Source: a virus
Strand: one strand, 5' to 3'
DNA length: 21,870 bases
Virus record (IMG/VR): IMGVR_UViG_3300021134_000034
Location: 1-21,870 of that record
The notes under the pieces were generated by a model. It did not search any database. It was not told the origin of the DNA and was given only the letters and a program-made list of their open reading frames with translations. A program made the position numbers and the translations under genes. Numbering within the stretch: position 1 is the first letter of the stretch; each line of letters begins with the position of its first letter. This document shows positions 1-5,500 of this stretch, in pieces.

Positions 1-279
1 GAAAAGAAGAGTCTGTCCCGAACGGCCAATCGTGATGGTGGGAGAGGCTGCATCATAGGTGATGGCACCAAGCGTGACCGTATTGAGAGTGCCCGAACCG
101 TCGCCATCGGTAAGCAAGGTCAGGGAACCACCACCGGTGAAGCTCAGCGGAACAGCCGAGCCCACGCCGGTGAGGTTGATGCCAAAGACCTTCTTCAACG
201 TTGGTCGTCTTTCTATAATGCAGTCAATGGCGACCAATACCCGGAGGGGAACTTCGTTAGAAATATCGCCCCCCCGCAT
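1..279 (-). CDS. Partial beta-rich hypothetical protein, 3' end outside window
   Basis: I do not recognise this gene. The minus frame is open from an ATG at 279-277 to the window edge (93 codons). From about codon 28 on it reads as a plausible Gly/Thr/Ser-rich beta protein (FGINLTGVGSAVPLSF, TLLTDGDGSGTLNTVTLGAI, TYDAASPTITIG). Codons in that part end in G or C about two-thirds of the time, unlike the phage genes upstream, which favour A/T. The ATG lies 2 bases after the stop of the SWIM gene but has no visible ribosome binding site, and it is followed at once by a run of seven Gs. The plus strand is also open here and ends at 285, but its translation is low-complexity and basic, as expected for an antisense shadow. 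The junction near 200-240 may be a recombination or assembly join, so the start and the first 25 codons are uncertain. Confidence 0.4.
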   Translation of the reverse strand, partial: MRGGDISNEVPLRVLVAIDCIIERRPTLKKVFGINLTGVGSAVPLSFTGGGSLTLLTDGDGSGTLNTVTLGAITYDAASPTITIGRSGQTLLF

Positions 280-281
280 AT

Positions 282-566
282 TTAAACTACTTCGATTTTA
301 CCAAAGTTAATCAGAAGTGTTCTGAAACTCTCTGGACTTTTGCTGGCGATAATAGTTTCGATTCGTGATACACGATTGGAAACCTCTGTAGGATAGATTC
401 CGCCGTTCTCATCCATCTTCTCTCGCACAAAGTTGACATGCTTGCAAGCGCTACGAGTTGTATAACCTGGACAGTCACAACGTAACTTGTGAGAAGAAAG
501 GTTGATAGAAACTTCGTGCACCCCAGTGTCCGATAGGAACAACTGCGTAATCTGCCATGTATCCAT
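282..566 (-). CDS. Small SWIM-type zinc-finger protein (94 aa)
   Basis: The protein holds a compact SWIM signature, CxCx8CxH: C30-D-C32, eight residues, then C41-K-H43. SWIM fingers bind zinc and act in DNA or protein binding, for example in recombination mediators and transposase-like proteins. The domain fills the first half; the second half (residues 50-94) is charged and probably helical, with no motif I know. The frame is open further upstream to an ATG at 662, but that would overlap the helicase-loader gene by 89 bases. The ATG at 566, 7 bases after the loader's stop, is the better choice. A GGAG lies about 20 bases upstream of it, which is too far; the same GGAG sits 8 bases before an in-frame ATT at 578, so a non-canonical start cannot be excluded. 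The position next to initiator and helicase-loader genes suggests a role in DNA replication or recombination (inference). Confidence 0.72.
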   Translation of the reverse strand: MDTWQITQLFLSDTGVHEVSINLSSHKLRCDCPGYTTRSACKHVNFVREKMDENGGIYPTEVSNRVSRIETIIASKSPESFRTLLINFGKIEVV

Positions 567-573
567 TGAAGTC

Positions 574-1257
574 TTAATTTCTCTTTCTCCTATCCCCCAC
601 AGGTGATTGTAGCGCAAGTGACACGAAAGCTTCATACGCAAAGCTTCCCATTGGTTCTCCATAAACTTCGCCCCATTTCTTCAATGGAACGTTAGTAGTA
701 ACTATAGTGGGTAGACCCGCGTTAAAACGGCTACGGAGCAGAGAGTCGAACGTATTTTCTGCCCAACCGCTAGCAGTGCGATATTCTTTGCCCAAATCAT
801 CTAGAACAAATACCTTTACGTTGTGCTCACGATCTGCATCACCGTTGATACCGTCTAAGAGGATCTGTGCGTCATCATCAGGCTCTGACCACTGAGCTTG
901 CTTCAAACGAAGTAGCTTTGGGTAGTCTGAGAAGTACACCGGACGGCGAACTGTACCGACAGGGTTTCCCCAAGCGAGTCGTGGCATTGTCCGAACTAAT
1001 TCTTGGACAGCTACCGACGCAAGTGTTGTCTTGCCATGACCAGGTTCGCCAACGAGCATAAGTCCCATACCACATAGTGGCTGACCGATTGCTTGAATAA
1101 CCTTTTCTGACCGAACATTGTCAACCCACTTCTTAACAGCATCTACTGTTGGACTTGGATCTAGATCTGAGAACTCCATGCCGATAGACTTCATAGGAAG
1201 ATTAGCACCAAGGATCTGTGACCTAATGTGTCCGTGCAATTCTGATACGTCGTACAT
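574..1257 (-). CDS. DnaC/IstB-like helicase loader ATPase (227 aa)
   Basis: This is an AAA+ ATPase of the DnaC type, which loads the replicative DnaB-family helicase onto DNA at the origin. With the start used here, Walker A is GEPGHGKTT at residues 70-78, Walker B is VFVLDDLGKE at about 149-158, and a sensor-I-like PTIVTTNVPLKKW lies at about 183-195. The DDLGKE form and the following LRSRFNAGLPTIVTTN stretch are typical of DnaC/IstB loaders. The frame is open upstream to an ATG at 1383. I chose 1257 because that ATG overlaps the stop of the preceding gene as TAATG, sits 3-4 bases behind a GGAGGGG, and avoids a 127-base overlap with the initiator. Coupling to the initiator gene supports joint action in starting phage DNA synthesis. 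No DnaB-family helicase is visible in the window, so the host or another phage gene must supply it. Confidence 0.88.
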   Translation of the reverse strand: MYDVSELHGHIRSQILGANLPMKSIGMEFSDLDPSPTVDAVKKWVDNVRSEKVIQAIGQPLCGMGLMLVGEPGHGKTTLASVAVQELVRTMPRLAWGNPVGTVRRPVYFSDYPKLLRLKQAQWSEPDDDAQILLDGINGDADREHNVKVFVLDDLGKEYRTASGWAENTFDSLLRSRFNAGLPTIVTTNVPLKKWGEVYGEPMGSFAYEAFVSLALQSPVGDRRKRN

Positions 1258-2201
1258 TACCCCTCCAATAACTTGAGCATCTTTTCTTGGTGAGCCAAGA
1301 AGTCGTCGTCTACATATATTGATTTCTTTTCTACCTGAACTAATCCGTGTACCGTTGGATAGAAGGCCAAGAATCTTCGCCACAGTGGCTGACCGATTCC
1401 AGGATCTCTAATCAATCGCGGATCACCAAAGAACATTCTGATGGCTTTTAGAATAGCGGGACGTGATGAGCCTTCACTTACCATCTTGTTAATCCACGAG
1501 GCAAGGCTCTTGCCGTTTATCTGGCTAGGTACGCCAGGCGCTGCAGCACGAGATAAGTCATAGAATTCTGCGACAAGATCGCCGGTAGTCCAATCGTCTT
1601 CATCACGTGTGTCTCTGCGCATGGAAGCTGGGACTGCCTCGAATGAAGTCTTCTTATACTTCTCTCGCCGCATAGCAGCCTTATCTATAACCCTGCCTAC
1701 AGCGCCTGAGTCATCATCCGTATCGAGGTGTAGCTTACGCTTCTTAGGCTCTTCTTCATCGATTCCTGGCCAACCCATTTCTTTTCCCTCCTCGGGCGGC
1801 ACGCCCGTTATTAATACAGATACGTTAGTATCTGTATTAATAGTAGTACTTAAGCTATTAGCTTTATAGCTATCTATGGATAGAATGGCTGATTTTCGAC
1901 CATCGGTGCCGACAGTTGAATTTCCGCCATCGGTGGCAAAGTTTGGAACGTACGCGTTTAAGGTTTCGTCAGTAAAATACAAATTGGTACGCCAACGACC
2001 ATCACCAATCTGATAGCGTTCGATTGTGATGTATCCAGCTTTCTTGAGCTCCATCATGGCGCCCTTGATAGAATGCATGCCTTCAGATACTAAGTTAGAC
2101 TCAAAGAGTTCATTAGCTGACATGACTCGGCCTAAGTGTAGATATAGGCCATAAAGAGCTCGTGCCCTCAAAGATAAAATTGGATCAGTAATATAATCCA
2201 C
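1257..2201 (-). CDS. Replication initiator, winged-helix N-terminus (314 aa)
   Basis: This is a likely origin-binding replication protein. Residues 1-85 look like a winged helix of the phage initiator/DnaD-like kind (ARALYGLYLHLGRVMSANEL, then KGAMMELKKAGYITIERY and a beta wing at GDGRWRTNLYF). Residues about 90-200 form a polar, poorly structured linker. Residues about 203-290 form a second helical domain (TTGDLVAEFYDLSRAA, SLASWINKMVSEG, AILKAIRMFF, PLWRRFLAFYP), a plausible loader/helicase-contact domain. The start is GTG at 2201, with AGGAGG 9 bases upstream; it is followed directly by the DnaC-like gene (TAATG overlap), the classic initiator-loader pair. The linker-coding DNA contains an AT-rich island with a 15-bp inverted repeat, described separately. 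The family assignment rests on layout and context, not on a catalytic motif. Confidence 0.75.
   Translation of the reverse strand: MDYITDPILSLRARALYGLYLHLGRVMSANELFESNLVSEGMHSIKGAMMELKKAGYITIERYQIGDGRWRTNLYFTDETLNAYVPNFATDGGNSTVGTDGRKSAILSIDSYKANSLSTTINTDTNVSVLITGVPPEEGKEMGWPGIDEEEPKKRKLHLDTDDDSGAVGRVIDKAAMRREKYKKTSFEAVPASMRRDTRDEDDWTTGDLVAEFYDLSRAAAPGVPSQINGKSLASWINKMVSEGSSRPAILKAIRMFFGDPRLIRDPGIGQPLWRRFLAFYPTVHGLVQVEKKSIYVDDDFLAHQEKMLKLLEG
1809..1842. repeat. Perfect 15-bp inverted repeat with 4-base loop
   Basis: The arms TATTAATACAGATAC (1809-1823) and GTATCTGTATTAATA (1828-1842) are exact reverse complements, separated by GTTA. They lie inside the initiator gene and encode residues of about 120-131 in its linker. 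Such a long perfect palindrome is not demanded by the protein sequence. It could be an initiator-binding site, an operator, or an RNA hairpin in the message. Confidence 0.93.
1809..1890. promoter_or_regulatory. Candidate replication origin inside the initiator gene
   Basis: Bases 1811-1890 are about 29% GC by hand count, while the 60 bases on each side are about 52-53% GC. The island contains three inverted repeats in a row: the 15-bp one at 1809-1842, AGCTAT/ATAGCT at 1853-1858 and 1866-1871, and CTATC/GATAG at 1870-1883. Just outside it, CCATCGGTG is repeated in direct orientation at 1900-1908 and 1927-1935. In lambda-type phages the origin lies inside the initiator gene O, in the part coding for the linker between its DNA-binding and partner-binding domains. 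The same position here suggests an unwinding region flanked by binding sites. This is inference; the repeats and composition are seen directly. Confidence 0.5.
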
Positions 2202-2208
2202 TAGTTCT

Positions 2209-2222
2209 CCCCTCCTAGGGGG
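2209..2222 (-). promoter_or_regulatory. Ribosome binding site of initiator within a small GC hairpin
   Basis: On the minus strand the leader of the initiator gene reads CCCCCTAGGAGGGG. The AGGAGGGG is the ribosome binding site for the GTG start at 2201, and the CCCC just before it can pair with its GGGG. This could lower initiator translation, but the stem is only 4 bp with a 6-base loop, so regulation is tentative. Confidence 0.35.
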
Positions 2223-2228
2223 ATAACT

Positions 2229-2495
2229 TTATCTCATAGGTATGCGCTTTGGCAACTCTCGTGCAGATGGTTGATTAAATAGTTCTTCTACACCCATCGA
2301 CAATACTAGCCCTAAAAAGGTCACAGCAAGCCCGTAGATGGGCAAAAAACGAAGGTGGGTACCCAAGACTACCAAAGAAATAAAAGAGGCTCCTAGAGCC
2401 AGCAGGCCCCTAAATTTGCCTAATGAAATTAAGAAGGTTTCTACGGCTACAAGAATACATGCCGATGCTAATGAAGCTATGAACACATTAGACAT
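2229..2495 (-). CDS. Small three-span membrane protein (88 aa)
   Basis: The protein has about three hydrophobic segments, at residues 3-24 (VFIASLASACILVAVETFLI), about 28-47 (GLLALGASFISLVVLGTHL) and about 51-69 (LPIYGLAVTFLGLVLSMGV), followed by a polar, basic tail (ELPKRIPMR). It starts at ATG 2495 with AGGAGG about 5-6 bases upstream, 9 bases after the stop of the large tail gene. Size and topology would fit a holin or another phage inner-membrane protein, and its place after the tail-fibre gene is common for holins. However, no endolysin gene is next to it, and the following genes are for replication. I therefore leave the function open. Confidence 0.7.
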   Translation of the reverse strand: MSNVFIASLASACILVAVETFLISLGKFRGLLALGASFISLVVLGTHLRFLPIYGLAVTFLGLVLSMGVEELFNQPSARELPKRIPMR

Positions 2496-2504
2496 TATTG
2501 CCTC

Positions 2505-5500
2505 CTATTGTCTAAATACAACCCTATCAATCTCAAACGCTTGTGTAGCGTCTGGAGTTGCTGGGTTAAACGTAACAGATAGTATAGCATATGCAGCCCC
2601 CACTGTAGAGGTCGCGGGGAAGATGTTAGCAATATATCCCCAGCGGTCTGTGTGGGTGTTGGTTACGGTTACAGTTCTGTACGTGGTTGTCACGTCTGTG
2701 TAGGTAACCCCTGACGAAGATGGAAGCGAAGTGCTGATGATTCCGTTAGACCAATGGTAGACAGGAATCAAAACCTGGTTGGCATCATAGAAGTCTACAC
2801 GCATTGTGTAAGAACCCTCAGACACAGAGTTGAGTGGACGAATAGCTGCCGACGCATAATAGCCACGACCTGAAAGAACATTAGCTACATAGCTGGTCTT
2901 GATACCAAAGCTGCCTGTAGAACCAGTGCGGCTTACCAAACAGTATGCGGCTCCATGGGTTACGTATTGTCCGTATAGGGAACCGTTAGATACTACGCGC
3001 TTCAAAGAAGAGTTAACGCCAACCCATTGTCCCAAATCCTTTTCAAAGGAGGCTGAAGGAATCAAAGACTCAGTAAGGTCTGGATAGTTATCGGTAGGGT
3101 AACCAACTCTTACAGCCCATGTACTTCCTATTGGCATCACTAAACTTAATGAGTCGCGAAGACGTTGTGTCTTGATGGTGAGGTTAGAGATGTAGCTGCT
3201 CTTTCCACCATTGGTGCTCTGAGCTTGAGTAGTGTAGATAAGTGATGTGCCGTCTGTTGGGTTAACAATAGTGCCAGTGGTATTGGACGATGGGTTTACA
3301 AAAGCGTTTGGTACTCTACCGTACTCAGCTTGAACACCATCAATGTGGAAGAAAGAAGTTGGGGCAATTGTATAGCCTGGGCCTCCACCTGGTAAGAACG
3401 GTGCTGGTGGAACTATGCCAATACTTAGGGTAAAGCTTGTCTGACCAGCCACAAGTTGATAAACAGTGTGGGTGCGAATCCACTGGTACTGGTCGTGCTG
3501 ATAAACTTCCATGTCGGTAGACGCAGAGTTGCCGCTACCATTATCAGCTTTAATAGTGTATGTGCCCTCAGCAGCACGGACAGAGGCAGATACAACTACG
3601 TCTTCTCCACCCACTGCTGGCTGTGGAAGAGTTACTACGGTAGAGATACTGCCACCTACGGCTGGGTCATATTCAACTTTTCCAAGATATGTTCCATATA
3701 GGGCGTTGTAGAATACCGGAGCAATAACCGCATTAGCATATGTGCCATTAGGTTCTACAGCTCTAGATGCAGAAACTCCAGGACCTGGGTCTCGTACCAA
3801 CGTTGTGCCGGAGGCAGCTACCCAACTACTTGGGGTAGTACCACTTGATACTAATTCAAAAGATGGATTCTGAACATAGTTAGATAGGTTCTTATATTCC
3901 CATGTGCAATCGTTTAAAGAATAAAAACGACTGGCTAATGGGTTGGATGGAACAGGAGCACCTGAGCCATCAAAGAATGGGTCAAGGTTAGCGGAGTTCT
4001 CAAACAGAACCCCATCTACCCATGTAGTTTGTCCAGGAATCATATCTGGATAGTAGATAGTCAGCTTAGCCAGTGGCATACCTGAGTCACGAGTGTATTG
4101 TGGGGCAATAGCAGATACAGTAACTCGACTTTGAACAGGAACATACTGGATAGGGTATCCATTATATGTATCGGGTCCTGTACCAGCAGAGTATTGAGGT
4201 ACTAGCGTATCTACGATAGGGTGTCCAGTTCCATCGTCCACAGAGTTAGCAACCATTGTTACCGCTGTGCCGTCTACATAGTAAACAGTATTGTCATAGT
4301 ATTGCCCGTCAGCATCAGTAAGAATAGCGGTTTGCTTATCAACTGACTCACGATTAGAAAACTCAATACGCGCAATAGCTCTTCCTGCATTTGGGTATTC
4401 ACTAGTTACATAAGCGCTAAATGTATAGTTCTGTCCTGGCTCTACTTCAAACCAATCAGAAGTAATAAAAGATGTTCCCGGACTTTGAACTGTAAGTTCT
4501 CCAAGACAACTTCCGTAGAAGATAGCGGTGTTATAAACAGTTGGGTCTTGAGCAAATGAACAATTAAGCGAAGCAGTCCAACCACCGACTCCTTGTTCAA
4601 AGTCTGGGTTAGTAATCCAGTTCTCTTTTTCACCACGCAAATAAACAATAACCTTACGAGCATCTTCATACTCTAGGCTATCTACTGCCTCAGCCATCTG
4701 GAATAAATCAAACAGGCAGGTGGTGGCGGATGTTGTTGTGGGGGTTACGGTTATAGATATAGTTGCGTACTGAGCTTTAAGAGGAGACAACTGACCGTTA
4801 CGACCGGAGTCTGATTTAGAAGTAAACTCCGTCCAAGTTGTTGTAGAAGTTTTTGCAGTAGGCAGTGCTGTTGTACTTAGTAAGTTTGAGTTAAAATCAT
4901 ACCAGGAGATGGCAGCTGCCACCGTTGCTGGATTATCTAAATGTTTAAACCAACCAGAAAATAGATAGCGAGTATTTGGTTGAACGGGAATTCCATAGTT
5001 AATTACGCTAGTACTGCTTCCCGGAAGCGATAGTACAGCTGAGTTAGTAGAGGCAGGCAAAGCTAGCGCAGCAAATCCCTGCATACGTGGAGGATAACTA
5101 AAATCATAAAGAGGAAGAGATGGGCTTGTAACCGTACTGCTAAGATCGGTAAGGCTATTTACGTACAGGTGTTGGGTAAAGGTACCAGCACTTGTAACCC
5201 AACGTCCTACAGATTCTTCAAATGAAGAGTCGTTATAGTCAAGCATACGGTTGTGGCCTATTACGACCTTATTATCTAGGTGAGTAAGAGAAGTAACATA
5301 GGCGTTTACTGCAGGGGTGGTTCCCTTTAATCCATTAATTATGTTACCGGCCCTATATAAGGACCGATGATAGCCATCTCCCAAAGCAGCTTCGTAGTTA
5401 AAACCAAGAGTATCCATCTGAGCTGGAAGGAGACCGCTATGAATTGCACTCTGAGATGAGGTCTTTTCAAGTATGTTTGCCTCAGCACGTAGCTGATCGT

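Follow-up and report, generated by a model that had tools for sequence, protein, structure and literature searches.

What is a long perfect palindrome doing inside the coding sequence of a phage replication initiator? In the 21,870-base stretch of viral DNA analysed here (the window), the initiator gene occupies positions 1257–2201 on the minus strand and encodes 314 residues from a GTG start with the Shine-Dalgarno sequence TAGGAGGGG. A preliminary description of the window had reported, within this gene, a perfect 15-bp palindrome with a 4-base loop. The palindrome is real: hairpin I (1809–1842, plus strand) has the form TATTAATACAGATAC-GTTA-GTATCTGTATTAATA, a perfect 15-bp stem whose GTTA loop is closed by a C-G pair. 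It sits where GC is lowest within the gene's linker-coding region and is the only inverted repeat in the window with arms of at least 11 bp and a loop shorter than 10 bases. The GC content, said to fall from 52% to 29%, is 28% for 1809–1890 and 52.5% for the flank at 1721–1800, but the remaining initiator gene averages 47%. A lower GC content is found in just 17 of the 21,788 82-bp segments. Three inverted repeats in a row had also been noted; all exist, but the last two (1852–1864 and 1870–1883) have stems of only 5 bp and show no sign of being kept in relatives. On the other side of hairpin I, one base away, lies a GC-rich hairpin that the earlier description did not include and that is stronger than the 5-bp repeats: hairpin II (1793–1807, plus strand), CGGGCG-GCA-CGCCCG.

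When the codon order of the linker was shuffled 5000 times, the longest arm obtained was 11 bp, compared with 15 bp in the real sequence, and an arm of 15 bp was reached in 2 of 5000 synonymous recodings. Folded as single-stranded DNA, the hairpin region gives z-scores against shuffles of -7.3 on the plus strand and -6.0 on the minus strand.

We asked how the palindrome fares in related phages. Two IMG/VR searches yielded a first set of 89 loci with a linker, all of which carry hairpin I. Three further searches yielded 68 loci that were not used in forming the hairpin rule, and hairpin I is present in 66 of them; a query with one locus, L099, matched itself only. Many of these contigs are near-identical, with approximately 28 distinct hairpin I stems among them, so the independent evidence is smaller than the number of loci. 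Changes in relatives that break the repeat had been proposed as evidence against an origin here. What we find is that the sequence changes while hairpin I remains paired, and in the same place, in 155 of the 157 loci. The palindrome is thus conserved as DNA, well in excess of what the codons require, but it is the pairing and the loop type that are kept and not a fixed sequence. On a tree of 105 sequences, built from the initiator protein outside the linker, 86 of 90 inferred pair changes are double: both partners changed, and the new pair is again Watson-Crick. Watson-Crick pairs fill 1505 of the 1509 cells of hairpin I, where the arm ends were set by a scoring that disfavours mismatches and biases the outer stem positions; the arms are at least 11 bp everywhere. 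At the place of hairpin II, relatives have a hairpin whose stem varies but stays paired. Two close relatives, L201 and L203, have neither hairpin and no substitute on their contig fragments, and they retain the TA-rich linker, the internal Shine-Dalgarno sequence and the ATG that follows it. The hairpin is therefore not indispensable.

The kind of base pair bears on whether the symmetry is that of DNA or of RNA. Under a scoring that tolerates G.U, such pairs make up about 1% of hairpin I, at stem ends only, and 2% of hairpin II, versus 15.7% in 40 terminator-like hairpins from six of the same genomes, a comparison set in which some false positives may be present. G.U pairs are tolerated in RNA structures, and hairpins I and II are almost devoid of them; DNA-level symmetry is therefore favoured over RNA pairing.

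The loops follow a strict rule. Read on the plus strand, the hairpin I loop takes one of three forms in all 155 loci, c(GTTA)g, c(GTA)g or c(GAA)g, and it never appears inverted or on the opposite strand. The hairpin II loops are less uniform: among 23 types in the first set, 13 are GNA, three GNNA and one g(CNNG)c, and the second set is more variable still. GNA trinucleotide loops are described as forming extraordinarily stable DNA minihairpins (Yoshizawa 1997, as cited in PMC6479982), and the title of Nakano 2002, as referenced in PMC5090098, counts both d(cGNNAg) and d(gCNNGc) as stable DNA tetraloops, in a set of four such motifs. To extrude, the phage N4 promoters need the base pair that closes the loop, a G at the loop's 5' end and an A at its 3' end, and their non-conserved stem bases are free provided they pair (PMC4496689). 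The loops described here match the published GNA/GNNA rule for stable, extrudable DNA hairpins, and an extruded hairpin is a plausible, putative working form of the element.

Symmetry at the DNA level could also mean a plain duplex operator or initiator-dimer site, similar to a single lambda iteron, at which no hairpin forms. In lambda, dimers of O bind iterons that are inverted repeats of 19 bp (PMC5043065). Counted outwards from its loop, hairpin I has nearly constant stem positions 1, 3, 6, 8 and 9, as expected for contacts. However, positions 4, 5, 7 and 10–15 vary freely and are still perfectly symmetric, initiator genes encoding nearly identical N-terminal domains (97–98.5%) have stems with 3 to 8 differing pairs, and a fixed loop orientation is not expected of such a site. 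The pairing of variable positions and the differing stems beside near-identical N-domains argue against a simple duplex binding site, which we consider unlikely. Alternatively, the two-arm changes may be a functionless by-product of replication. Template switching homogenises short repeat arms in coding DNA and can keep them perfect, which would explain simultaneous changes in both arms, but it also inverts short spacers (PMC8604942), and in none of the 155 loci is the loop inverted. Furthermore, nearly all relatives have kept the hairpin at this one site, with its loop rule and the second hairpin, which calls for selection. We regard such a by-product as highly improbable; as judged from the sequence comparison, the hairpin is almost certainly a selected DNA-level element.

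The loop rule raises the question whether the hairpin is a promoter or a priming site for RNA polymerase, like those of phage N4 or of single-strand plasmid origins. The likeness to the N4 early promoters is close: conserved stem bases are mixed with variable but paired ones, and a C-G closed loop with a 5' G and a 3' A forms on one strand (PMC4496689). The N4 promoters, however, have short stems (7 bp in the solved complex), whereas the stems here are 11–15 bp, about twice that length, and there is one such hairpin per genome, located in the initiator gene. No matching polymerase was found: the two complete relatives with listed open reading frames have none of the size of a very large RNA polymerase. 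A search with PF00940 (N4-type virion RNA polymerase) gave no match, and the control was equally silent. We think a promoter or priming function very unlikely.

The position of the hairpins relative to translation has to be considered as well. On the sense strand, hairpin II terminates at or beside an internal Shine-Dalgarno sequence, GAGGAGGG (1786–1793, minus strand), which is followed by an in-frame ATG at 1778–1776, codon 142 of the initiator. This internal start just downstream of the hairpins is absent from the preliminary description. At codon 142, 137 loci have ATG, and the nine loci in which it codes for Val all use GTG, although GTG accounts for only about 9% of the Val codons in these phages. 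The anti-Shine-Dalgarno energy at the internal start has a median of -8.0 kcal/mol over 64 contexts, compared with -2.6 for controls, and the internal Shine-Dalgarno sequence is kept across differing encoded peptides. Because the start and its Shine-Dalgarno sequence are conserved in frame, a second product is predicted, the C-domain alone (173 residues; 1257–1778, minus strand), and the initiator gene probably yields two proteins.

Could the two hairpins, lying 5' of this start, be an mRNA element that governs how the short C-domain product is translated or how stable it is? The conserved start, the closeness of hairpin II to the Shine-Dalgarno sequence, and the good folding of the region as RNA (z = -5.8) count in favour of such an element. 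The pairing pattern speaks against it, with hardly any G.U pairs and hardly any single-sided changes, as do loops that are neither GNRA nor UNCG in the RNA sense and the retention of the Shine-Dalgarno sequence and ATG in L201 and L203, which lack the hairpins. Control at the mRNA level is therefore a rather unlikely explanation.

If the hairpin acts as DNA, its surroundings bear on its role. Next to hairpin I is a TA-step-rich stretch of low stability (1843–1890, assigned to neither strand), which together with hairpin I forms a putative unwinding element. The record comprises the 21,870-base window only, so genome-wide tests were run on six complete relatives of approximately 100 kb. In these genomes and the window, no 60-bp segment exceeds the best of the element in TA steps. 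In some genomes its stability ranks at the extreme; in others the rank is modest, with up to 1% of 60-bp segments less stable. The Ser, Thr and Asn codons of the linker are often AGT, ACT and AAT, giving rise to TACTAG repeats. GC skew was rejected as origin evidence: the slope of the raw skew shifts close to the element, yet no such switch is seen at fourfold-degenerate sites, so the shift is accounted for by gene content.

Recombinase sites are, in outline, dyads with an asymmetric centre, and the perfect dyad around an asymmetric loop resembles them. A site for site-specific recombination, integration or telomere resolution is nevertheless extremely unlikely: none of the six complete relatives contains a tyrosine integrase or a ResT/TelK domain, the assemblies run through the element, and it is located inside a conserved reading frame.

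Two copies of a 9-bp repeat, CACCGATGG, at 1900–1908 and 1927–1935 (both minus strand), are candidate initiator sites. Many relatives have ACCGACG and CGTCGGT repeats, which fall in two reading frames and precede the hairpin by about 40–115 bases; repeats of this type are possible initiator sites. ACCGACG was rejected as a universal iteron; only about half of 33 representative linkers carry it, and in some genomes it is clustered beside the element. A lambda-like array of about four 18–19-bp iterons was not found in the window, which contains only the two 9-bp copies.

The predicted structure of the initiator protein consists of a winged-helix N-domain (approximately residues 5–78), a linker (approximately 86–164) predicted to be disordered, mostly with pLDDT below 50, and a helical C-domain (174–312). 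The linker is poorly conserved, with many indels among relatives. Six of 44 relatives match HTH_36. In structure alignments, the winged helix matches 4pql ('N-Terminal domain of DNA binding protein', Z 7.3), 5kbj ('Structure of Rep-DNA complex', Z 6.8) and 4pt7 ('Structure of initiator', Z 6.7), scores that tie with many unrelated winged helices. For the C-domain fold, Foldseek and VIA-align returned no significant PDB match, and a DnaD similarity was not recovered. The initiator had no match in the phage database searched and no relative in the collection of cellular genomes searched.

The claimed pairing of the initiator with a DnaC-like helicase loader is borne out. The loader gene (574–1260, minus strand; 228 residues as scanned) matches phrog_50 with an E-value of 6e-23 and lies directly downstream of the initiator gene, an arrangement kept in relatives. 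In one relative, G001, the loader is followed by a DnaB-type helicase, a DNA primase, a further DNA helicase, a DNA polymerase, a UvsX-like recombinase and exonucleases. The end of the loader gene is overlapped by a small protein at 282–662 with a weak match to a SWIM zinc finger. Positions 1–166 of the window have a GC content of 56–61% and are unmatched by the near-identical contig L001, which corresponds to 167–3549 at 99.6% identity; these positions are probably a chimeric contig end.

The nearest cultured relatives, judged from DNA polymerase and tail sheath (35–39% identity), are Streptomyces phages such as the myovirus BRock, and for this reason the host is likely to be actinobacterial. 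These cultured phages have no comparable hairpin close to the loader gene. A syntenic protein of 374 residues in them was considered as a homologue of the initiator and proved to be unrelated. In BRock, GiJojo, pSt2308 and Alone3, a gene for a protein of about 155 residues lies directly before the DnaC-like loader, or, in BRock, one small gene further up. The protein aligns collinearly with the initiator C-domain at 24% identity, which is not significant, and perhaps it is a stand-alone version of that domain.

Known replicons provide precedents for an origin inside an initiator gene. The lambda origin lies within gene O and comprises four 19-bp iterons and a 40-bp AT region (PMC5043065). The locus described here is similar in that the site is in the initiator gene by an AT-rich unwinding stretch, with dyad-symmetric DNA and a helicase-loader gene next to it. 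Unlike lambda, it has a single long hairpin that covaries, a GC hairpin beside it and an internal translation start that is conserved. The lambda O layout invoked earlier thus holds for the site in the linker of the initiator gene but not for lambda-like iterons. In pSK41, the origin is located inside the rep initiator gene (PMC5703833). RepA_N plasmids (pSK41, pSK1 and the hybrid pPR9) encode an initiator of about 319 residues with a winged-helix N-terminal domain, an origin-encoded linker and a helical C-terminal domain, and the N-terminal domain of pPR9 is pfam13730, the family also matched by the six members here (PMC5703833). In contrast to the hairpins, these plasmids have four Rep boxes, and the DnaD similarity of their C-terminal domain has no counterpart in our searches. 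The pT181-type double-strand origin also has a cruciform-forming palindrome within the rep coding region (PMC5703833), but it is nicked by a rolling-circle Rep, whereas the initiator here is a winged-helix protein, without a recognised nickase domain, that is accompanied by a helicase loader.

Based on its position, its unwinding signature, the neighbouring loader and the lambda and pSK41 precedents, we suggest with moderate confidence, as its most probable function, that the element is part of a putative phage replication origin. The origin proposed in the preliminary description is favoured by the DNA-level pairing, the disordered linker, the loader neighbour and a location at the TA-richest place; the missing iteron array counts against it. 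The tandem hairpins would fit as an unusual addition to an initiator-embedded origin of the kind found in lambda O and pSK41 rep. From these sequence features, we propose the following order of events. The winged-helix N-domain would bind the region, possibly at the ACCGAC-type repeats and the conserved inner stem, and negative supercoiling would open the TA-rich stretch. Hairpins I and II could then fold, with the plus strand favoured by the GNA/GNNA loops. The folded strand would mark the site and the strand at which the C-domain and the DnaC-like loader place a DnaB-type helicase.

More tentatively, the locus may represent a new type of phage origin, a possibility that we put forward with some doubt. 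Tandem GNA-capped hairpins would extrude from one strand of the initiator gene where it encodes the TA-rich linker, and their structure, not their sequence, would be the signal for strand-specific helicase loading. An internal start immediately after the hairpins would let the same gene also produce its loader-binding domain as a separate protein. The internal start would add a regulator or a loader-only form of the initiator, a form that a plain ORF call misses. For large uncultured phages, the replication origin is hardly ever known, and the hairpin makes it testable whether natural origins use hairpins extruded by supercoiling. If this reading is true, a double-stranded phage origin would be recognised by DNA secondary structure and not by iterons, and the hairpin would provide a rule for finding origins in a large group of phages of approximately 100 kb.
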